64,000 nucleotides of DNA, from positions 62,001 to 126,000 of the forward strand of contig VGPF01000001.1 of assembly GCA_016875535.1 (NCBI GenBank), given 5' to 3'. Made by a program: the position numbers and the translations under genes. Positions 7,455 through 18,580 of this stretch are shown here, piece after piece (positions within the stretch are counted from its first letter, which is position 1; each line of letters opens with the position of its first letter). The notes beneath the pieces were generated by a model. That model saw only the letters and a list, made by a program, of their open reading frames with translations. It searched no databases and had not been told where the DNA came from. The DNA is from Chloroflexota bacterium (lineage in GTDB: Bacteria > Chloroflexota > Dehalococcoidia > SHYB01).

Positions 7455-9281
7455 ATGAGCATCCGTTGGAGGAATCGTTTATTCGCTGCCCTTGCCCTCA
7501 TGGCGGTGGTGGTCATGGTGGTGACGGCGTGCGGCGGCGACGATGATGAAGATACGCCGCCTACGGCGACGTCGGGGCCCGCAGCCACGGCGACGCCGCG
7601 TCCCGCGGCGACGGCCGCACCAACGTCGGCGGCGCCGACGGCAACGGCAGCGGTGCTCCCGACGGCGACACCACGCCCGACGGTATTACCAACGGTGGCG
7701 CCGACGGCAACGCCCGCGGGCGCGCGGCCCGTACGCGGCGGCACGTATAGCGTGCGCCTGCAATCGGACGTCGTGCAGGGCCTGAGCTGGGACCCGCACC
7801 TTTCCAGCGGGCACGTCCAGATCAAGGCAATGCCGAACGTCTTCAGCACGCTGCTGATGCTTGACGAACTGGACCATCAGACGGTCAAGGGAGACTTAGC
7901 GGAGAGCTGGAGCATCGCGCCTGACGGGCAGACCTATACGGTGAAGCTCCTCAAAGGCGTCACGTACCACGACGGCTCACCGCTCACGGCCAAAGACGTC
8001 ATCTTCTCCCACAAGCGCCTGACGGGCGAGATCGCACTCACACCCCCCTCGCCGCACGTCTCGGCCTTCCGACCGTACATTGACATCATGGAGATGCCGG
8101 ATGATTTCACCGTCATCTTCAGGCTGAAGCAGCCTTCGGCGGCCTTCATCTACAGCCTGGCCTTCCTCTTCGCGGCGATCCACCCGGAGAAGATGGGCTC
8201 GCCCTATGCGATGAACCCCGCGAACACGCCGATCGGCACGGGGCCCTTCAAGTGGATCGAGCGCAAGCCGAACATCAGCATCACGATGCGCCGCAATGAC
8301 AGCTACTTCAAGAAGGACAAGGACGGTCAGGCGCTCCCGTACTTGGCGGAGCTTGACTTCCAAGTAATCAACGACGGCACAACGGCCTTCGCGGCCTTCC
8401 GCACAGGGAAGTTCCTGGAGGCAGATTACCTGGACCCCGGGTTGCTGAACACGAGCATTGACCAGACGAAGCGAGAATTCCCGAACTACATCTTCGAGAC
8501 AGGCTACGGCTCCTGGAGACAGATCGGCTTCCGGAACAAGCCGCCGTACGACAACGTGAAGATCCGCCAGGCGCTGGACCTTCTCGTAGATCGCCCCGGC
8601 TTCGTGACCGCTCGCTATCCCGGCTATGGCCATGCCGGGGCAAGCCCGCTGCTGCCGCCGAGCCTCCGGGGGCGCTGGGGGCTGACGGACCAGGAGACGA
8701 GCACGCTGATCAATACAGGCCCCGTGACGCCGCAGATCATCCAGAGGGCCCGACAGCTCTTCGTCGAGGCGGGCGTAGACTACGATAAGTTCGAAGTGAA
8801 GCTGATGACCCTACCCATCCCACTCTACACGGACGATGCCGCCTTCATCCAAAGCGCCTGGAAGAAGGCCGGATTGAACGTGACGCTGGAAGTGCCGGCG
8901 CAGGCGGACTACTCGGTGCGACGCATCGCCGGGAACTTCGACGTGTACTACGTGCCCGCGACGAGCAACACGGACGATCCCGACCTGGTGCTGGGCCAGT
9001 GGTACCCGACGGGAGCCTCGCAGAACTACGGCAAGTTCAGCAACGCGAAGATCGACCAGCTGTACAACGACCAGAGCCGCGCCGTTGACCCGGCCCGCCG
9101 CAAGACTCTGGCCCAGGACCTCCAGCGGGAGATCCTTGGGGCCGGCAACTTCACGCCGAAGGTGGCGTGGGCCGGTTCATGGGTAGCGTGGTCGCCGCGC
9201 ATGCGCAATTACAATGCAGCGTGCCCCGGGGCGTACTGCTTCCGCGGCAAGCATGACATCCTGTGGCTGGCGCCTGCATAG
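7455..9281 (+). CDS. Dipeptide/oligopeptide-type ABC transporter substrate-binding lipoprotein (SBP_bac_5), copy 2
   Basis: 608 residues, with the same architecture as its upstream paralog: signal peptide with lipobox VTAC (Cys26), Ala/Thr/Pro-rich tether to about residue 92, then a DppA/OppA-like domain. Long stretches are shared with copy 1 (for example MVVTACGGDD and the C-terminal CPGAYCFRG), while the ligand-facing part diverges, so the two may bind different solutes. A strong promoter and terminator bracket this gene alone, and no permease or ATPase is present. The role in uptake is known for the family; the ligand is not predictable from sequence. Confidence 0.93.
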   Translation: MSIRWRNRLFAALALMAVVVMVVTACGGDDDEDTPPTATSGPAATATPRPAATAAPTSAAPTATAAVLPTATPRPTVLPTVAPTATPAGARPVRGGTYSVRLQSDVVQGLSWDPHLSSGHVQIKAMPNVFSTLLMLDELDHQTVKGDLAESWSIAPDGQTYTVKLLKGVTYHDGSPLTAKDVIFSHKRLTGEIALTPPSPHVSAFRPYIDIMEMPDDFTVIFRLKQPSAAFIYSLAFLFAAIHPEKMGSPYAMNPANTPIGTGPFKWIERKPNISITMRRNDSYFKKDKDGQALPYLAELDFQVINDGTTAFAAFRTGKFLEADYLDPGLLNTSIDQTKREFPNYIFETGYGSWRQIGFRNKPPYDNVKIRQALDLLVDRPGFVTARYPGYGHAGASPLLPPSLRGRWGLTDQETSTLINTGPVTPQIIQRARQLFVEAGVDYDKFEVKLMTLPIPLYTDDAAFIQSAWKKAGLNVTLEVPAQADYSVRRIAGNFDVYYVPATSNTDDPDLVLGQWYPTGASQNYGKFSNAKIDQLYNDQSRAVDPARRKTLAQDLQREILGAGNFTPKVAWAGSWVAWSPRMRNYNAACPGAYCFRGKHDILWLAPA

Positions 9282-9922: not shown

Positions 9923-11137
9923 TTAGCGGAGGCCTTTGGTTTCGACGAGGCGCTCGACATCGGCCGGGGACATGCCGAGGAGCTCTTTGGTAACGTAGTC
10001 GTTGTGGTGGCCCCAGAAGGGCGCGTGGCGCAGGAGGTCGCGGGAGAGGCCGTGGACGTAGAGGGGCGAGGCGTAGGCGGGCTGGGTGCCGACGATGGGA
10101 TGCGGATTGTCCACGTAGGCGCGGCGGACCTTGGTCTGGGGCGTGTGGATGACTTCGCCGACAGAGAGGACTTCGGCGGCGACGAGGCCTTTGCTGCGCA
10201 GGGGGGTGATGACTTGCTCGGGCGAGCGCTGCTTGGTCCATTCACCAACATGTCGCTCAAGGGATTCGATGTTCGCGGCGCGCTGGAGGGCATCGGCAAG
10301 ATCGGCGCGGCGGGTCCATTCGGGGTTGCCTAGCGCGTCGCAGAGTCGGAGCCACTCTTCTTCCGTTCGGACGGAGATGGCGACCCACTTGTCATCGCCG
10401 GCGCAGGGGAAGGCGCCTTGGAGGAAGACGAACTCATCGCGGTCCTCCACTTTCACGGGCACGGCGGCGTTGTTGGCGGCGGCGAGGAAAACATCGGCGA
10501 CGATATTGACGGTGACTTCGATCTGGGAGAGGTCTATGTGGCAGCCGCGGCCCGTGGCAAGGCGGCCCTGGAGTGCGGCCATAACAAGGCCGACGCCGTA
10601 CATGCCGGAGATATAGTCGGTATAGACCCAAGGCGAGGCGGTAGGCGGGGCATTTTTATAGCCGAAGAGGGCGGCCATGCCGCTGACGCCTTCCAGGAGG
10701 GGGCCATAGGCGATGTAGTGCTTAGTGGGGCCCGTTGCGCCGAAGCCGGACATGGAGAGAAGGACGATGGCGGGATTGGCGCGGCGAAGGAGGTGAAAGG
10801 GGAGGCCGAGGCGATCCATGGTGCCTGCGGAGAAGTTTTCGACGATGACATCGCTGACGGTGACGAGCTCGAGGAAGGCGTTGCGGCCGCCTTCCTGGGT
10901 GAGGTCCAGGGTCATGCCGAGCTTATCGCGGTTCATGATGGTGAAGTAGTAGCTTCGATCTTGCCCGGCGACGCCGTCTTTCATGGGGAAGTTGGCGCGG
11001 AGGGTCTCGGGGCGCTTTGCGGTCTCGACCTTGATAACTTCGGCGCCGGCGCCGGCGAGAAGGGAGCAGCAATAGGGCGCGGCAACGGCGGTGCCGAGCT
11101 CGAGGACGCGGAGGCCCGCGAGGGGGTAGGCTGTCAT
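9923..11137 (-). CDS. CaiB/BaiF class III CoA-transferase, catalytic-type subunit (pair 1)
   Basis: 404 residues, the standard length for class III CoA-transferases, which move CoA between organic acids through an aspartyl-CoA intermediate. The N-terminal motif LAGLRVLELGTAVAAPY and the GRGCHIDLSQIE block are diagnostic. The catalytic Asp is present (D174 in YTDYISG). Its ATG overlaps the stop of the upstream CaiB gene by four bases, so the two are co-translated and probably form a heteromer, as in BbsEF and SmtAB enzymes, where one subunit carries the Asp. No acid substrate can be assigned. Confidence 0.92.
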   Translation of the reverse strand: MTAYPLAGLRVLELGTAVAAPYCCSLLAGAGAEVIKVETAKRPETLRANFPMKDGVAGQDRSYYFTIMNRDKLGMTLDLTQEGGRNAFLELVTVSDVIVENFSAGTMDRLGLPFHLLRRANPAIVLLSMSGFGATGPTKHYIAYGPLLEGVSGMAALFGYKNAPPTASPWVYTDYISGMYGVGLVMAALQGRLATGRGCHIDLSQIEVTVNIVADVFLAAANNAAVPVKVEDRDEFVFLQGAFPCAGDDKWVAISVRTEEEWLRLCDALGNPEWTRRADLADALQRAANIESLERHVGEWTKQRSPEQVITPLRSKGLVAAEVLSVGEVIHTPQTKVRRAYVDNPHPIVGTQPAYASPLYVHGLSRDLLRHAPFWGHHNDYVTKELLGMSPADVERLVETKGLR

Positions 11138-12342
11138 ACGACACCCGCCGCCGAAAGGGCATCTACATCGGCTGCAGAGAGGCCGAGCCAGGCCATGAGC
11201 AGATCGCGCGTGTGCTCGCCGAGGGCGGGAGCGCGTCGGCCATCGGGCGTCATTTCGCCGTCCACGCGATAGGGGGCGCGCAGGCCGATGAAGGGGCCGC
11301 CATCGGCGCGCTTGCCAGGGGCGAAGGCGCGGCGGGCGATGAGCTGCTCATCCTTCATGACGTTGTCCATAGTGCGCGCCGGGCCGATGGGGACATCGGC
11401 GGCCTGGGAGCGGACGTAGAGGTCTTCGGCCTCCTGCTCGTCGAGCCAGGGGGCCATGAGGGCCTCCAAGTCTTCCTTATATTGCGCGCGGGTGCGGCGG
11501 ACCTGGAACATCTCGGCCTTGGTCCATTCCGGGTCGCCCATCATGCGGACGAAGCGCTGCCACTGGGCCTCCTGGATGATGAAGAGGCTGGCATAGCCGT
11601 CTTTCACCGGGAAGAAGCCGAAGGGGGCCATGCCCTTGACGCGCTTGTTGCGCCGCTCGACGACGCCGGAGAAGTTGTAGTTGTTGGTCTGATCGGCGAC
11701 GACGGGGAAGAGGGTTTCAACTTCGGAGACGTCTACGAGGGTCCCGCCGCCGTTGTGGCGGCGGGCCATGAGGGCCAGGAGACATGCGGCGGCGCCCATG
11801 AGGCCGCCGGTGACGGCGGCGGGGCGCCCGGGAAGGACGAGGGGCGGGCTCTCCGGGCCGGGGACGTAGAAGGGGCTGGTGTGGCCGGCGCCGCTGGCTT
11901 GATAGGAGACGAATGGCGAGCCTGGGGCATCGCGGTCAGGGCCGGTGAGGCCAAAGGGCGTGACAGAAGCGATGACGAGTCGTGGGAGGTCCCGCTGGAG
12001 GTTTTCCAGGGAGAGGCCGAAGGAGGCGAGGACGGCAGGAGTATAGCCGCAGAGGAGGGCATCGGCTTCGCGGAGGAGGCTCTTGAAGAGGGCGCGGCCC
12101 GTCGGGGTGGAGAGGCGAAGGGCGATACTGCGCTTGGCGGCGTTGAGATGGGCGAAGAGGAGGCTATTCCCTGGCCCGGGACGTTCACCGGCAAAAGGAG
12201 GGGCTTCCCGGCCGCGATCGCCGAAGGGAAGAGGCTCGACCTTGAGGACGTCAGCGCCGAGATCGGCCAGGAGTTTCCCGGCGAAGGGAGTGGTGACCTC
12301 TTCGCCGAGCTCTATGATGCGGAGGCCAGTGAGAAGGGGCAT
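11134..12342 (-). CDS. CaiB/BaiF class III CoA-transferase, Asp-less partner (pair 1)
   Basis: 402 residues of the CaiB/BaiF fold (LTGLRIIELGEEVTTPFAGKLL at the start). At the position of the catalytic Asp in its partner this protein has Ala (about A176, in RPAAVTGGLMG), so it should not form the aspartyl-CoA intermediate itself. It is therefore more likely the non-catalytic half of a heteromeric enzyme with the 9923-11137 product. The ATG at 12342 is preferred over an upstream Met because a TACACT box lies only 7 nt before it and no ribosome site is present, pointing to a leaderless mRNA. Confidence 0.88.
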   Translation of the reverse strand: MPLLTGLRIIELGEEVTTPFAGKLLADLGADVLKVEPLPFGDRGREAPPFAGERPGPGNSLLFAHLNAAKRSIALRLSTPTGRALFKSLLREADALLCGYTPAVLASFGLSLENLQRDLPRLVIASVTPFGLTGPDRDAPGSPFVSYQASGAGHTSPFYVPGPESPPLVLPGRPAAVTGGLMGAAACLLALMARRHNGGGTLVDVSEVETLFPVVADQTNNYNFSGVVERRNKRVKGMAPFGFFPVKDGYASLFIIQEAQWQRFVRMMGDPEWTKAEMFQVRRTRAQYKEDLEALMAPWLDEQEAEDLYVRSQAADVPIGPARTMDNVMKDEQLIARRAFAPGKRADGGPFIGLRAPYRVDGEMTPDGRRAPALGEHTRDLLMAWLGLSAADVDALSAAGVV

Positions 12343-12349
12343 GCACCCG

Positions 12350-12355
12350 AGTGTA
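12350..12355 (-). promoter_or_regulatory. Candidate -10 box for a leaderless CaiB transcript
   Basis: TACACT on the minus strand, ending 7 nt before the ATG at 12342, which has no Shine-Dalgarno site. The -35 region is weak (ATGATT at 17 bp). Confidence 0.4.
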
Positions 12356-12499
12356 TCAGAGTCGCCAGACGCAATCATGCCCGTTTTAGGGGCCGGTCTG
12401 CACGGCTTTTTCACGCCACGCGCAGGGAAATTCACGCCTCCGGCGCGCCGGCTCAGGATGCTGTATCTGTTACGTCCACGAAGGTGAAAGGGGTTCCCT

Positions 12500-13654
12500 A
12501 TGTTCCTGGAAGAGACGGTTGCGACGATCCTGGCAAAGGCGAAGAAGGGCCCACAGACGCTCTCCGTCTATCTGGACACGGACGCGGCGACGGGCCTATG
12601 GAAGGACAAGGTGTACAAGCTGGAGATGTCCCTGGCGAAGTTAGGGGAAAAGGCGGCAGGCACCGGGGATGCACGGTCGTTCGAGGCCGATAGGGGGAAG
12701 GTAACGGCCTTCCTGAAGAAATACAAGGCGAAGGGCGACGGCCTGGTGATCTTCGCCAGCGACGGGCAGGGGCTATGGTGGACGACATCGCTGCCGGTGC
12801 GAGTCCCGAACGAGGCGCGGTACGAGGCGAAGCCGCACGTGGCGCCGCTGGCAGCGATCTTCGACGAGTACCAGCGGTACTGCATCGCGGTGGTGGACAA
12901 CCAGAATGCGCGGCTGCTGCTGGCGCACCTTGGCCAGATCGAGGAGCAGCAGGTGGTCGAGAGCGCGGTGCCGAAGCGGCATAAGCAGACGGAGCACGGC
13001 ATCAAGGCAGAGAAGCGCCATGCAATCAGCGTGGCGCGGCACCTGGAGAAGGCGGTGGAGGCGCTGGACGCGCTGCACAAGAAGGCGCGCTTCAACCGCA
13101 TCATCATCACGGGGGCGGCGGAGGCCGGGCCGAAGTTCGAAAAGGCGCTGCCGAAGCACCTGCAGCGGCTGGTCATCGCGCGGACGCGCTCGCCGCTCTA
13201 CACGTCCAACGGGCAGATCCTGAACGAGGTGGCGAAGATCGAGGAGGCGTTTGAGCGGGAGAAGGAAGCGAAGCTGGTGGACGACCTCATCGCGCGGGCG
13301 GGGAAGCATGCGCGCGCGACCATCGGCGCGGACGCGACGCTGCTGGCGCTGCACGAGGGGCAGGTCTTTGAGCTCATCGTGGCGGAGGGGGCGAAGCTGG
13401 AGGGCGTGGTGTGCCAGAGCTGCGGCTTCGCCAGCGGCACAATCGTGAGGCAGTGCCCGCGGTGCCAGGCTGAGATGGAGCGGACGGAGGACCTGGCCGG
13501 GGTGGCGCTGAAGAAGGCGCTTGCCTCCGAGACGATACGAGCGGAAATGGTATCGGAAGCGGCGCGTGAAAAGCTGCTGGCCGAGGGCGGGATGGGCGCG
13601 CTGCTGACGGACGTGCCGTATTCGCGGGACGGGGTGCGACAGCGCAGGGCCTAG
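12500..13654 (+). CDS. eRF1-like (baeRF-type) protein with C-terminal zinc ribbon, GGQ loop not conserved
   Basis: 384 residues resembling bacterial archaeo-eukaryotic release-factor (baeRF) proteins: an N-terminal domain (1-120), an eRF1 domain-2-like part from YQRYCIAVVDNQNARLLL (about 124), and a pelota/L7Ae-like C-terminal part with a zinc ribbon (C305, C308, C319, C322). In eRF1 the loop after this strand carries GGQ, which triggers peptide release. Here the equivalent loop (about 159-175) reads KRHKQTEHGIKAEKRHA with no GGQ. It may act on stalled ribosomes or tRNA without hydrolysis, or use other residues. ATG at 12500 has an AAAGGGG site. It converges on the phosphatase gene with a 4-base stop overlap. 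Confidence 0.72.
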   Translation: MFLEETVATILAKAKKGPQTLSVYLDTDAATGLWKDKVYKLEMSLAKLGEKAAGTGDARSFEADRGKVTAFLKKYKAKGDGLVIFASDGQGLWWTTSLPVRVPNEARYEAKPHVAPLAAIFDEYQRYCIAVVDNQNARLLLAHLGQIEEQQVVESAVPKRHKQTEHGIKAEKRHAISVARHLEKAVEALDALHKKARFNRIIITGAAEAGPKFEKALPKHLQRLVIARTRSPLYTSNGQILNEVAKIEEAFEREKEAKLVDDLIARAGKHARATIGADATLLALHEGQVFELIVAEGAKLEGVVCQSCGFASGTIVRQCPRCQAEMERTEDLAGVALKKALASETIRAEMVSEAAREKLLAEGGMGALLTDVPYSRDGVRQRRA

Positions 13655-14391
13655 TCCAGGAGGAGCTGGCGGAGTCGGGCGACGGTCTCGTCCGGGACGC
13701 CGATGCTACGGAGGTAGCCGCCCATGTCCCTGTACTTAGCTTTGACCCACTGGAGAAGGCGCTCCATGGTCTCCGGCTTGGCTGTGAACATGGCCGGGGA
13801 GAAGCGCTCGGCGGTCTTTTCATAGCCGGGCGTGCCCTTGAGGCGCTGGAGGAAATCGCCGAGGTAGACCTCCGTGAGGGCATAATCGCTGATGATTTCT
13901 TCTTCGTTTACGTCCAGCGCGCCGAGGACGACGGCGGTGAGGATGCCGGTGCGGTCCTTGCCGCCCATGCAGTGGATGACGGCGGGGTGATTCTCGTCGT
14001 CGGCAAGGGTTGTGACGGCTGCGGCGATCTTATCGGCCGCGCCGACCATCATGTGGGCGTAGTGCTTGGCGACATCGCCGGTGACGCGAGGGTCGTTCTG
14101 GTTGACGAGCATGGCGGAGGTGAGAAAGGGCAAGTGGTGGTAGGCGGCCTGCTTCTCCGTCAGGGGGCTTTTGCCGTACTTGGCGAGCTCATCGTTGCTG
14201 CGCAGGTCAATGATGGTGCGGATCTTCAGGTCATCGGCGGCGAAGGCGATATCTTCGGGCTTCATGGGGTGATGGGCGTCGCTACGGAAGATGCGCCTCC
14301 ATTTGACGGCCCGCCCACCCCTGGTGCGATAGCCGCCGATATCACGGAAGTTCTGCAGGCCTTTCATGGGATAGTGGCGCTGGCCGCTCAT
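13651..14391 (-). CDS. Tyrosine-phosphatase-like protein (Tyr_phosphatase3/PTP family)
   Basis: 246 residues. The protein has the CX5R phosphatase P-loop HCMGGKDRTG (Cys141, Arg147) and the N-terminal NFRDIGGYRTRGGRAVKWRR typical of the bacterial atypical dual-specificity and phosphoinositide phosphatases related to MptpB. An IDLRS segment (61-65) is where the family's general-acid region begins. No signal peptide. It is the third gene of a hemE-hemH operon, overlapping the hemH stop by four bases, but a link to heme is not known. Possible substrates are phosphotyrosine, phosphoserine or phosphoinositides. Confidence 0.88.
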   Translation of the reverse strand: MSGQRHYPMKGLQNFRDIGGYRTRGGRAVKWRRIFRSDAHHPMKPEDIAFAADDLKIRTIIDLRSNDELAKYGKSPLTEKQAAYHHLPFLTSAMLVNQNDPRVTGDVAKHYAHMMVGAADKIAAAVTTLADDENHPAVIHCMGGKDRTGILTAVVLGALDVNEEEIISDYALTEVYLGDFLQRLKGTPGYEKTAERFSPAMFTAKPETMERLLQWVKAKYRDMGGYLRSIGVPDETVARLRQLLLD

Positions 14392-15350
14392 CGCAGTTCG
14401 CTCCGTTCACGCCGGACGACTTCGGCGAGGGCGGTGATCAGCTCGGGGGCGGTGTTGAGGGCTTCGATGCGGTGGAGCTTCAGGCCCACGGCTTCGGCAT
14501 CTCTCCTCGCGGCGATGTCTACATCATAGAGAATCTCCAGGTGGTCGGCGAGGAACTGGATGGGCGCGATGAGGACGGACTTGCGGCCTTCTTTCGCGAT
14601 CTGGGGCAGGACTTCCTTCAGGTCAGGCTTCAGCCATTCCTCCGTCGACTGCCCCGCGCTCTGATAGGAGAAGCGCCAGCGCTCCTTAGGCAGTCCAACA
14701 CGGGAGGCGACGGCGGCGGCGGTATCGTGGAGCATCCGGGTATAGGCGGGTTCCAGGGCGACGACGCTCTTGGGAAGGCTGTGAGCGGACATGACGACAG
14801 GGATCGCGGCGCGCTCGGCGGCGGGGAGGCGGTCGAGGGCTTCCCGCACGCGGCGGGAGAGGCCATCCAGGAAGACGGGGACGGTGTGCCAGGCCTTTGC
14901 TATCCATAGCCTGCCCTGGGGACCGAGGACGGGCTTTGCGGCCTCAGCGGCTGCATAGTAGCCGGCCATGACGCCGGGGGTTTGCTGCGGGGCCATGATG
15001 ATGCCGACGACGTCCGTGATGCGGTCCACAGCGGCGAGGTGGGCCATCGCCTCGTCAATCATAGGCGGGGCGTGCCGCATGCCGACAACGACGCTGTAGC
15101 GCTCGCCCGGTGTGGCGGCGGCGTTCAACAACTCTTGCAAGGCCTTGGCCTGGGCGAGGGTGATTTTCAGAAGCGGCGAGCCACCGATCATGCGGAAGCG
15201 GCCCTTGAACTCTTCCACGAAGGCAGGCGGGAAGGGGCGTCCGCCGCGAACGCGCGTGAGGTAATCGGGCACGTCATCCACGGTCGCGGGCGTGCCGAAG
15301 CTCATGAGGATAACGCCGATGGGCCGTGAGGGTTCCAGCATAGCGGGCAT
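14388..15350 (-). CDS. hemH: Ferrochelatase (coproporphyrin or protoporphyrin type)
   Basis: 320 residues, close to the 310-residue Bacillus enzyme. It inserts Fe2+ into a porphyrin at the end of heme synthesis. Two active-site signatures are visible: MSAHSLPKSVV with His190, and ADHLEILYDVD with Glu272, matching His183 and Glu264 of B. subtilis HemH. The resemblance to that enzyme suggests the coproporphyrin-dependent route (CpfC), but no hemQ or hemY is in the window to confirm it. Starts 3 nt after hemE and overlaps the phosphatase gene by four bases. No membrane segment, so cytoplasmic. Confidence 0.93.
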   Translation of the reverse strand: MPAMLEPSRPIGVILMSFGTPATVDDVPDYLTRVRGGRPFPPAFVEEFKGRFRMIGGSPLLKITLAQAKALQELLNAAATPGERYSVVVGMRHAPPMIDEAMAHLAAVDRITDVVGIIMAPQQTPGVMAGYYAAAEAAKPVLGPQGRLWIAKAWHTVPVFLDGLSRRVREALDRLPAAERAAIPVVMSAHSLPKSVVALEPAYTRMLHDTAAAVASRVGLPKERWRFSYQSAGQSTEEWLKPDLKEVLPQIAKEGRKSVLIAPIQFLADHLEILYDVDIAARRDAEAVGLKLHRIEALNTAPELITALAEVVRRERSELR

Positions 15351-15353
15351 GGG

Positions 15354-16406
15354 TTATCGGCTCGGTTCGTTGTGAACAAGGTCCACGAGCCGAGCGAGGT
15401 TTTCGGGGTCCGCCTGGGGAAGGACGCCGTGGCCAAGGTTAAAGATGTGGCCGGGACGACCCTGGGCCATGCGGAGAATCTTTCGGGCCTCGGCGGCGAT
15501 GACATCATAGGGGGCGAGGAGGATGGAGGGATCCAAGTTGCCCTGGATGCCCTTGCCGTGGCCGGTGCGCGCCCAGCCCTGATCGAGAGGGACGCGCCAA
15601 TCCAGGCTCATGACGTCCGCCCCGGCGGAGGCCATGACTTCCAAGAGGTGCGCAGTGCCGGTGCCGAAGTGGATGGAGGGAAGGCCGATGGTGCGCATCT
15701 CCGTAAAGATGCGCTTGGAGTAGGGGAGGACGAAGCGCGCGTACTGCTCACGGCTGAGGACACCGACCCAGCTATCGAAGAGCTGGGCGACGTGGACGCC
15801 GCTGTTGGCTTGCTCCCGGAGGTAGCGCACGACGACCTCCGTGACCTTCTCCATGAGCCTGTGCCAGAGCTGCGGATCGCGGTACATGAGGCCGCGAACG
15901 AGATCGTAGGTGCGGGAGGGGCCGCCTTCGATGAGGTAGCAACACAGCGTGAAGGGTGAGCCGGAGAAGCCGATGACGGCGGTCTGCTCGCCGATCTCCT
16001 TGCGCACCAAGCGGAGGGCTTCGAAGAGATAGGGTGTGGCGCTAGCGGCTTCGACGATCCGGATGGCGTCCACATCGGCGGCGGTGCGCACCGGCTTTCC
16101 GATGACGGGGCCGACTTCGGGCTCTATGGTGAAGGGGACGCCCATGCCCTCCAAGGGGAGCATGATATCGGCGAAGATGACGGCGCCGTCCACGCCGAGG
16201 CGCTTGACGGGCATGAGGGTGACCTGGGCGCAGAGCTCGGGGTTCTTGGCCATGGTGAGCAAGTCATACTTCTTCCGCAATTCCCGGTATTCAGGAAGGG
16301 AGCGTCCGGCCTGGCGCATGAACCAGACGGGAGTAGCATCGGCCTGCTGGAGGCGCAGGGTCTTGAGAAAGCGATCAAGGCCTGTGGACTGTTTCGTGGA
16401 GGGCAT
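15354..16406 (-). CDS. hemE: Uroporphyrinogen decarboxylase
   Basis: 350 residues, standard length. It converts uroporphyrinogen III to coproporphyrinogen III in heme synthesis. N-terminal signature WFMRQAGRSLPEYRELR (about residue 28) contains the conserved Arg residues that bind substrate carboxylates; FADIMLPLEGMG and GFSGSPFTLCCYLIEGG are further family blocks. The start at MPSTKQSTG is chosen over an upstream Met because the latter would extend beyond the usual N-terminus. First gene of a three-gene operon with hemH and a tyrosine phosphatase-like gene. Confidence 0.95.
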   Translation of the reverse strand: MPSTKQSTGLDRFLKTLRLQQADATPVWFMRQAGRSLPEYRELRKKYDLLTMAKNPELCAQVTLMPVKRLGVDGAVIFADIMLPLEGMGVPFTIEPEVGPVIGKPVRTAADVDAIRIVEAASATPYLFEALRLVRKEIGEQTAVIGFSGSPFTLCCYLIEGGPSRTYDLVRGLMYRDPQLWHRLMEKVTEVVVRYLREQANSGVHVAQLFDSWVGVLSREQYARFVLPYSKRIFTEMRTIGLPSIHFGTGTAHLLEVMASAGADVMSLDWRVPLDQGWARTGHGKGIQGNLDPSILLAPYDVIAAEARKILRMAQGRPGHIFNLGHGVLPQADPENLARLVDLVHNEPSR

Positions 16407-16456
16407 GTCTCTTGTGCCGGACAAATAGGGATGCGGTACGGGAGACGGTGAGGCCC

Positions 16457-16485
16457 ATTGTAGCACAGCACCCCGGGTCATTCAG
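16457..16485 (-). promoter_or_regulatory. Candidate hemE promoter
   Basis: On the minus strand CTGAAT (16485-16480), 17-bp spacer, TACAAT (16462-16457), 50 nt before the hemE ATG. The -35 match is only 3 of 6; the -10 is 5 of 6. It abuts the upstream terminator. Confidence 0.4.
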
Positions 16486-16548: not shown

Positions 16549-18327
16549 CTATTTGTTCAGCCAGATGGTGTCCATACGCAGTCCCATGTGGACGGCGAAG
16601 CGGCCCTGGCGGAAGCCCTCTACGGGCTTCTGGAGGGGCCAGGTGGAGAAGCTGTTCACAAAGGGGACGAAGATGGACTGGTCTATGAGGCGGCGCTGGA
16701 GGTTTTGCACGAGAAGCTTGCGCCGGTTGGGATCCAGGGCGCCTTCTTGATCAGCGGCGAGGCGGTCAACTTCGGCATCAGACCATTTGCCGTAGTTGCG
16801 CGGGCGTCCCGTAACCGTGTAATCGAGCACTGTGTCCGAGATGTCATCTATCACACGGCCACCGAAGAGGCCGGAGAAATCGAAGTCGCCGGCCATGAGG
16901 GAGGAGGAGAGCTGGCCACCGGTGGCGGTGAGGATCAGGTTGGTCTGGAAGCCCATCTTTCGGAACTGGGCCTCTAGGCCTTGGGAGACATCCGGGAAGT
17001 TGGCGGTGGACTGTATCTTAACGGTCACCTTGGAGGGGTCTACGCCAGCCGCGGTGAGGATACGCCGGCCCTCGGCGCGGTCGGCCTCGGTCACGCCTTT
17101 GAAGCCAGGAAGGGCAAGCATCTCCGAGGCGGGAAGGCCCCAGCGGCCGCCGCTCTCCGGGCCGAGCATGATGGAGGGCGGGTAGAAGGAGAGGCCGCCG
17201 CGATCCAGGGTGTGGACCTCCTTGAAGTCCATCATCATCATGACGGCTTTGCGCACCTGGAGGTTATCCCAAGGCGCTCTGTTGTTAAGGTAGTAGGCGA
17301 AGGAGTCGCGGCTAAAAGTGAGGATCTTGGCATCGGGCACAGAGGACTTCAGCTCGTTGCCGAACTGGAAGGTGAAGTCGAAGCCGCAACCGCAGTCCAG
17401 GCGACCGGTGCGGAAGGCGGCGCGGGCGGTGTTGACATCGGTGATGAACTGGAACTCCACGCCGTCAAGGAAAGGCAGGGCGCGGCCCCGCTCGTCCTTG
17501 CGGTGGTACGACTCGAAGCGCTTGGTGGTGAGGGTGTTCTGCGCCTTGTAATCGGTGACGACGAAGGGCCCGGTGCCGATGGGATTCTTGATGGCGTTGC
17601 TTGAATCTTTACCCAGGGACGGGTGATACATGAGGAGGAAGGGAGCGGCGAAGTTCGCCAGGAAAGAGGCGCTAGGCTTTTCGATGGTGAGGCGCAAGGT
17701 GCTGGCATCCACGGCCTCCATCTTAGTAATGGGGCGGACGCGGCTGAGGTTCACATTCAAGATGGCCGTGGGCGGACTGGGCGGCGGTGGATTTTTTGCA
17801 CGATCAAGATTGAACAAGGCATCCTGTGCGGTGAAGGGCTGGCCGTTATGCCATTTGGCAGTCTTCACCAAGAAGATGGTGAGGACGGTGCCATCGGAAC
17901 TCAGCTCCCAGCGCTCGGCCAGATCGGCCTCCAGGGTGCCGGGCTCTTCGGCCTTGAGGGCGATGAGGTTGCTCCAGATGTTGAGGGTGTGCTCGACGCT
18001 GAACTGGCTCGTGACGGCGTAGGTATCCCACGGCTCGAAATCGCGGAGGGAGCGAGCGCGAAGGACGCCGCCGCGCTTAGGCTCGACGCCCTGTGGAGTG
18101 GGCGTGGGCGTAGGCGGCGCGATGGGGACGGGCGTGGCGGTTGCGGGCGGCGGCACGGGGGTGCGGGTGGCGGTTGGTGCGGGCGCGGTGGTGGCCGTGG
18201 GCGGCGCGGCGGTTGGGCCCCGGGTGGGAGTGGGCTCGTCCTCATCGCCGCCGCAGGCAGTGACGACCAAGGCGGCTATGAGAGCGAGCACGGCAGCGAC
18301 CCAGACGATGCGGAATCGTGGTCTCAT
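16549..18327 (-). CDS. Dipeptide/oligopeptide-type ABC transporter substrate-binding lipoprotein, copy 3
   Basis: 592 residues. Signal peptide with lipobox VTAC (Cys25), a Pro/Thr-rich tether (about residues 30-75), and a DppA/OppA-type binding domain from about residue 80 (GVLRARSLRDFEPWDTY). It is more distant from the tandem copies at 5400 and 7455. ATG at 18327 is supported by GGAGG 8 nt upstream; longer starts would disrupt the signal peptide and run through the promoter. No transport partner genes nearby. Single-gene unit with its own promoter and terminator. Confidence 0.92.
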   Translation of the reverse strand: MRPRFRIVWVAAVLALIAALVVTACGGDEDEPTPTRGPTAAPPTATTAPAPTATRTPVPPPATATPVPIAPPTPTPTPQGVEPKRGGVLRARSLRDFEPWDTYAVTSQFSVEHTLNIWSNLIALKAEEPGTLEADLAERWELSSDGTVLTIFLVKTAKWHNGQPFTAQDALFNLDRAKNPPPPSPPTAILNVNLSRVRPITKMEAVDASTLRLTIEKPSASFLANFAAPFLLMYHPSLGKDSSNAIKNPIGTGPFVVTDYKAQNTLTTKRFESYHRKDERGRALPFLDGVEFQFITDVNTARAAFRTGRLDCGCGFDFTFQFGNELKSSVPDAKILTFSRDSFAYYLNNRAPWDNLQVRKAVMMMMDFKEVHTLDRGGLSFYPPSIMLGPESGGRWGLPASEMLALPGFKGVTEADRAEGRRILTAAGVDPSKVTVKIQSTANFPDVSQGLEAQFRKMGFQTNLILTATGGQLSSSLMAGDFDFSGLFGGRVIDDISDTVLDYTVTGRPRNYGKWSDAEVDRLAADQEGALDPNRRKLLVQNLQRRLIDQSIFVPFVNSFSTWPLQKPVEGFRQGRFAVHMGLRMDTIWLNK

Positions 18328-18404
18328 CAGCGCATCCTCCACATTCTTTTCGCTAGGGATGAACGTCACCAAGGCCAAAGGAGTGGGCGAGGTGATGTTG
18401 CGAG

Positions 18405-18434
18405 ATTCTATGGAGACGCTCCCGCCAGAGTCAA
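18405..18434 (-). promoter_or_regulatory. Promoter of binding lipoprotein 3
   Basis: On the minus strand TTGACT (18434-18429), 18-bp spacer, TAGAAT (18410-18405), 77 nt before the ATG. Confidence 0.65.
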
Positions 18435-18580
18435 GGCATTTTGGCGTGCATTCTTTCGGTATACTCGACTCCCGCGCATGATTACGACAAACGCACGCGG
18501 ATTCGGGGCCGCGAGGCAGGTGCAACGGCTTGTGGTATGCTTCCCCGGTTGTCTACCTCAGGAAGAAGCCTCTACCTTTG

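Follow-up and report, generated by a model that had tools for sequence, protein, structure and literature searches.

The closest described structures to the protein analysed here are those of the hibernation factor Balon and its relatives Msmeg1130 and Rv2629. According to the cited sections of PMC10901736, Balon, Msmeg1130 and Rv2629 lack the GGQ motif, and Balon also lacks NIKS. Msmeg1130/Balon occupies the ribosomal A site; a lasso loop of Balon surrounds A2602, and the peptidyl-transferase centre is kept inert. Further features described for Balon in the same sections are an HP motif contacting the decoding centre, a bL27 trap, and an EF-Tu beta-loop. In the cited part of PMC6514570, Burroughs and Aravind (2019) report that most baeRF families are without the loop Gln, that family 10 is an exception keeping one, and that family 10 is possibly an active bacterial release factor because of this Gln; Pelota is also without it in the same part. 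For yeast Vms1, the cited excerpts of PMC5989216 report that its GGSQ loop is active, that mutation of G292 or Q295 impairs release, that loss of the glycines abolishes the activity, and that deletion of S294, which shifts the spacing of the Gln, impairs release. Our literature search, covering mostly open-access papers, found no experiment on a family-10 protein.

The gene studied here lies at 12500..13654 (+) of the window, by which we mean the whole 64,000-nucleotide stretch of contig VGPF01000001.1 from a Chloroflexota genome of 2.5 Mb in 86 contigs. It is an intact open reading frame with an ATG start, coding for 384 residues plus a stop. The sequence AAAGGGG, 6 bases 5' of the ATG (12487..12493, +, read by eye), is a putative ribosome-binding site, and a search of 12200-13900 revealed no sigma-70-like promoter. 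In Pfam, the encoded protein scores 91.3 bits against PF18854 (baeRF_family10; E 8.7e-26, cut-off 27.1) over positions 1-142 of the 143 in the profile. Weaker Pfam matches are baeRF_family2 (29.0 bits, cut-off 26.9) and, below its cut-off, eRF1_2 (14.5 versus 27.1), and PF18859 (acVLRF1) is not among the Pfam matches at E up to 1. We note that PF18854 is not an exclusive model, since acVLRF1 proteins and archaeal genomes match it too. B. subtilis also has a match to this model.

When the single window protein was compared with PDB sequences, Msmeg1130/Balon was the only significant match (E 8.3e-06). With a family profile, Msmeg1130 came first (1.5e-34), followed by aRF1 (8.1e-26), eRF1 (~1e-18), Rv2629 (2.1e-14), and P. 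urativorans Balon (1.5e-08). The highest NCBIfam score, 73.1 bits, is for the hibernation-factor family MSMEG_1130, but the window protein scores under the cut-offs of all three hibernation-factor models (73.1/480, 44.1/320 and 31.4/330 bits) and under that of the aRF1 model (39.6 versus 234.7 bits). The same models stay below their cut-offs in all ten relatives scored, and in three of these the aRF1 model outscores (L064, L047) or ties with (L027) the hibernation-factor models. The window protein is a further, divergent Balon-like or baeRF family 10 protein with an unusual loop, and it is a single case.

The AlphaFold2 model of the window protein, built with 44 homologues, has a mean pLDDT of 91.4 and a pTM of 0.81, and contains three eRF1-type domains. 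The N-terminal domain, of the decoding-centre type, covers residues 1 to ~110 (12500..12829, +; boundary approximate, from the secondary structure of the model), lacks NIKS, and matches the structures 2llx and 2lgt with Z of 11-12. The middle domain, equivalent to eRF1 domain 2 and identified by Pfam (PF18854) and the model, covers residues 112 to ~230 (12833..13189, +) and aligns with the human eRF1 middle domain (2hst) with a Z of 13.5. The C-terminal domain, of the Pelota/L7Ae type, covers residues 237-370 (13208..13609, +), as judged from the model and fold matches. Together with the full-length matches, the model shows the domain set of baeRF family 10 (an N-terminal domain, a middle domain with the RNase H fold, and a C-terminal domain of the Pelota type). 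The eRF1/baeRF layout claimed in the original prediction is therefore borne out by the PF18854 match and the three-domain model. The zinc ribbon is supported as well: four cysteines (C305-x2-C308 and C319-x2-C322, in residues 302-329, 13403..13486, +, from the alignment and the model) lie within the C-terminal domain. The ribbon is inserted in this domain and does not form the end of the chain, because ~40 residues of fold come after it. Among 53 ribbon-bearing relatives, C305 is kept in 53, C308 in 47, C319 in 53, and C322 in 50; since these relatives were selected by at least three Cys in the ribbon stretch, the counts show which four sites are shared and not how frequent the ribbon is. The PF18854 score, the domain order and the ribbon are common to the window protein and its family-10 relatives, whereas the aligned stretch of Msmeg1130 has no cysteine pairs.

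A Foldseek search with the model gave Msmeg1130 as the top match (E 1.1e-23, TM 0.79), followed by P. urativorans Balon (3.0e-19), aRF1 4af1 (6.8e-19) and eRF1 (6.7e-18), with aRF1 4af1 interleaved among the P. urativorans Balon chains. In VIA-align comparisons, the model aligned with Msmeg1130 (8v9j, 8v9l) with a Z of 31.6 over 361 residues at 3.3 Å, with P. urativorans Balon (8rd8, 8rdv, 8rdw) with a Z of 23.7 over 339 residues at 4.3 Å, and with Rv2629 (8v9k) with a Z of 21.7 over 348 residues at 4.6 Å. The three-domain fold is thus shared with the Balon family over the full length (Z 21.7-31.6), at ~14-19% identity over the structural alignments. It is also shared with eRF1 (Z 20.8, 349 residues, 9.8 Å) and aRF1 (Z 20.5, 366 residues, 10.8 Å); these superpose only at 9.7-10.8 Å because their domain arrangement differs. 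Pelota came below Balon and eRF1 (Z up to 13.2, 212 residues, 6.1 Å). The fold is therefore eRF1-like and closest to Msmeg1130/Balon, and a fold unrelated to eRF1, which would have spoken against the original prediction, was not what we found.

As a control, we modelled a relative that keeps a GGWAQ loop (L087, pLDDT 92.7). Msmeg1130 was again its top match in VIA-align (Z 26.9, 363 residues, 5.7 Å), followed by eRF1 (21.8, 10.8 Å) and P. urativorans Balon (20.7, 6.4 Å). We considered whether likeness to Balon could be a sign of loop loss, and this control rules it out: the resemblance belongs to the whole family and is not due to the lost loop. Moreover, because eRF1 equals or exceeds P. urativorans Balon in the control, the fold by itself cannot tell a plug from a release factor. 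That the window model fits Msmeg1130 more tightly (3.3 Å) may reflect the domain arrangement in the prediction, and we do not use it as evidence.

The loop in the place of the eRF1 GGQ reads PKRHKQTEHGIKAEKRHA, and the profile alignment confirms that GGQ is missing at this position. It spans residues 158-174 (PKRHKQTEHGIKAEKRH, 12971..13021, +, from the alignments and the model), and residues 159-175 (KRHKQTEHGIKAEKRHA, as the original prediction quoted them) are coded by 12974-13024. In the model, the loop is flanked by a strand (146-154) and a helix (166-196) and has the lowest confidence, with a pLDDT of ~72 in the block 161-170. Neither GGQ nor NIKS is found anywhere in the 384 residues of the window protein, and the search for a GGQ placed elsewhere thus came back empty. 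We also considered a frameshift or an assembly error in the loop. This is ruled out, because GGxSQ is absent from both other frames, the codon-position GC is normal, and the loop codons keep the GC pattern of the gene (GC3 0.83 in the loop and 0.89 in the whole gene).

The usual loop of relatives is VPGKHxQGGW[SA]QARYQRH or a near variant. The profile alignment pairs the family loop with VPGKHKMGGQSQRRYERIIE of archaeal aRF1 and KKHGRGGQSALRFARLR of human eRF1, and places the family Trp on the catalytic Gln of eRF1, with the conserved family Gln two places further on. The aligned loop of the window protein, VPKRHKQTEHGIKAEKRHA, keeps in part the conserved flanks of the family (VP..H.Q before the core and K/R-R-H after it): the approach with VP, H and Q is retained, as is R-H after the core, and the core is swapped at about equal length. 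The replaced core is TEHGIKAEK (residues 164-172, 12989..13015, +, from alignments in which the gap placement is uncertain), the counterpart of GGW[SA]Q..[YF]Q in most relatives. At the sites where the window protein has Thr, Glu and His, the 53 ribbon-bearing sequences have Gly in 47 and 45 and Trp in 41. The absence of GGQ is therefore true here but not peculiar to this protein, as family 10 mostly has GGW[SA]Q and Balon, Msmeg1130 and Rv2629 also have no GGQ. GGQ is not the norm of family 10 sequences, and the unusual trait of the window protein is the loss of the whole GGxSQ core. The TEHGIKAEK loop is absent from every other relative loop compared, a comparison made without the new loci of a 400-genome phylum scan, and the nearest relatives, at 35-39% identity, have different loops. 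In one family-10 branch (L031, L034, L029 and L045), GGxSQ gives way to long, Gly-rich loops, for instance KRGGGNAMHGRMGG, a separate departure from the family loop.

We looked for a close orthologue with the same loop. The order has four other genomes, of which one (G003) gave a match, at 23% identity and with a loop that keeps GGWSQ. Of 393 genomes of the class, 37 contain a match with an E-value of 1e-10 or lower, the best of them at 39% identity, and of 400 genomes of the phylum, 41 contain one with an E-value of 1e-20 or lower. A scan of genome contigs with the single window protein gave no match. The same scan with eight closer sequences gave 73, of which 71 carry the motif; as the scan patterns themselves contain GGW[SA]Q, this proportion says nothing on frequency, and these sequences were excluded from the counts. 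From 96 non-redundant family-10-like Chloroflexota sequences (strict GGx[SATG]Q core in 35, GG in 67), 43 with fewer than three ribbon Cys or fewer than 300 aligned residues were dropped to leave the 53. These fall into GGxSQ (29), Gln at a longer spacing (5), GG without Gln (11), and neither (8, including the window protein). The classes were assigned by regular expressions, in which "GG plus Gln" covers longer spacings as well as a single GE form (L040); two sequences (L004 and L080) were classed by a GGxSQ string within a longer loop. Gln thus follows GG (or GE) in 34 of the 53 sequences. Because the other 19 are without it, the GGxSQ Gln does not define membership of family 10; it is characteristic, though not universal, and it is absent from the window protein.

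We built a quick tree from 67 sequences (the 53 plus 14 selected by motif), with the loop columns removed. Near copies cluster on this tree, and the presence of Gln requires at least ten changes, with starred branches alone forcing six for the GGxSQ group. Taken with the loop classes, this means that loss of the Gln is frequent and loss of the glycines rarer. The window protein stands beside L055 and L057, which have GGWSA loops (SH-aLRT 94, branch not starred), and its terminal branch is long (1.12).

How these features translate into function can be judged from Vms1 and Balon. The window protein has the same middle domain and the same loop position as the acVLRF1/Vms1-like release factors (PF18859), but the GxxQ core, which is needed in Vms1 according to the cited excerpts of PMC5989216, is missing from it. 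Judged from the sequence, the GG and the Gln needed for Vms1 release have no counterpart in it. Measured against Vms1, the GGxSQ loop of the family might be active, and the window protein is expected to be inactive; the original expectation that it would not cleave peptidyl-tRNA in the usual way is likewise supported by what the missing GGQ implies. Given the Vms1 loop mutants and the GGQ-less Balon with its lasso loop, we interpret the window protein as a non-hydrolytic A-site binder of the Balon type. It is probable, in our judgement, that this bacterial aeRF1-type protein, a homologue of Balon in baeRF family 10, binds the ribosomal A site without releasing the nascent peptide. The earlier suggestion that it might bind ribosomes gains support from the family and the fold, as its best solved match, Msmeg1130/Balon, is an A-site occupant (PMC10901736, cited sections). 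The predicted three-domain fold, seen in the model and the fold search, would mimic a tRNA, and by homology the middle-domain loop would extend toward the peptidyl-transferase centre. There it may lie passively, like the Balon lasso loop around A2602. Since the loop has neither the Gln of eRF1 nor the family GG nor a displaced Gln, no water would be placed for hydrolysis. Occupancy of the A site would block translation and may hold ribosomes inactive under stress or in stationary phase, perhaps jointly with the HPF of this genome. For the zinc ribbon, a part in contacting EF-Tu would be a guess.

A different role on the ribosome seems rather unlikely to us, in which the protein, like Pelota/Dom34, would bind stalled ribosomes without hydrolysis and, with a GTPase or ATPase as its partner, promote their splitting or clearance, and would not serve storage. 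Pelota shares the fold (Z ~13), the three-domain layout and, in the cited part of PMC6514570, the lack of a loop Gln, but in the structural comparison it scores far lower than Balon and eRF1, and no partner gene adjoins the window gene. It is improbable that the protein is still a release factor or hydrolase in which another loop residue (Q163, H161, H166, E165 or the K/H cluster) replaces the GGxSQ Gln. Among the 53 relatives, Gln is found at the site of Q163 in 25 and His at that of H161 in 27, and Vms1 is an example of a displaced Gln that is functional (PMC5989216, cited excerpts). However, in relatives in which the later Gln is present as well, Q163 stands ahead of the GG, and here the GG is gone; Vms1 itself is inactive without its glycines and impaired by the S294 deletion, and the new loop residues occur in no other protein compared.

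Loss of function followed by drift of the loop, that is, a decaying gene, would fit the long terminal branch (1.12) and the want of a close orthologue, with G003 at 23% the only match among the four other genomes of the order. The full-length open frame with a normal codon-position pattern, the four retained zinc Cys and the high-confidence fold make such decay improbable as well. The original prediction had also allowed that the His/Lys/Glu-rich loop serves another reaction, a suggestion that comes from loop composition only. We consider it very improbable: the comparison of homologues shows no conservation of these loop residues, in which even the relatives at 35-39% identity differ, the loop is the least confident part of the model, and neither a set of catalytic residues nor a pocket was identified.

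The Balon-like reading can be extended to the family, and here we are tentative, regarding the extension as possible but doubtful. Family 10 would be a series of present-day proteins that runs from release-factor-like to plug-like, in which most members keep GGW[SA]Q and may still release, and several lineages independently lost the Gln first (GGWSA, seen in the nearest relatives) and the glycines later (the window protein). If so, loss of hydrolysis, and not of ribosome binding, would be the repeated step turning release factors into hibernation factors, with the window protein as an end point. The family holds a contrast of its own: it was proposed as a possibly active release factor by its loop Gln (PMC6514570, cited part), yet its closest structures are hibernation factors. 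Comparison of the window protein, with no GG and no Gln, with GGWSA and GGWSQ relatives would bear on whether the GGxSQ Gln catalyses anything on bacterial ribosomes, and this family question is of more interest than the single gene.

The window gene stands alone, without a stress-gene neighbour. A divergent CoA-transferase frame lies upstream (11134-12435, -), one of two adjoining family III CoA-transferase genes (PF02515, 314 and 278 bits, 9923-12435, -), and a convergent tyrosine-phosphatase family gene (13651-14391, -) overlaps the window gene by 4 bases. The latter belongs to a close-packed run on the minus strand (13651-16481) with ferrochelatase and uroporphyrinogen decarboxylase (URO-D), and family 5 solute-binding proteins are found on both sides, on opposite strands (7455-9281, +, and 16549-18525, -). 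The one HPF gene of this genome is elsewhere (contig C5). From 86 loci of relatives, with genes called by frame length only, we collected 80 co-oriented neighbours within 150 bases. Twenty of these, picked by eye and not at random, were tested with Pfam, and 12 of the 20 are MerR (2), HSP20, PCMT, ClpB-type ATPase (2), DnaJ, DksA/TraR (2), S30AE (HPF) with a cold-shock domain, GrpE, and sigma region 4. The other eight comprise a bifunctional nuclease, an ABC ATPase, a phosphoribosyltransferase, PRC/BON, and four without a Pfam match. In a near relative (L232), a DksA/TraR gene lies 40 bases upstream. These neighbours agree with the stress operons reported for Balon genes (PMC10901736, cited sections) and the HPF association reported for baeRF families (PMC6514570, cited part). 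A similar-looking gene follows the family-10 gene in several records titled Deltaproteobacteria or Syntrophaceae and a few others (L142, L144, L145, L149, L154, L155, L157 and L161). In L142 this neighbour was considered as an archease, which was ruled out by its Pfam match to the bifunctional nuclease domain (PF02577).

The same genome codes for a second aeRF1-type protein, acVLRF1 (L203:6875-7867, -, contig C54; 331-residue frame, PF18859 109.2 bits), of a family that NCBI names peptidyl-tRNA hydrolase. With GGSSS as its loop, it has a Ser at the site of the Gln of some relatives; PF18854 thus finds two aeRF1-type proteins in this genome, and neither has the loop Gln. Among 20 acVLRF1-like proteins (L002, L008-L017, L019, L020, L022-L024, L173, L185, L188 and L189), assigned by our own HMM, with PF18859 checked on the own-genome protein alone, GG is present in all 20, and the residue two places later is Gln in nine, Ser in five, Ala in three, and Glu in three. 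One of the 20 (L016) has a true GGQ, in the loop GGQSQ.
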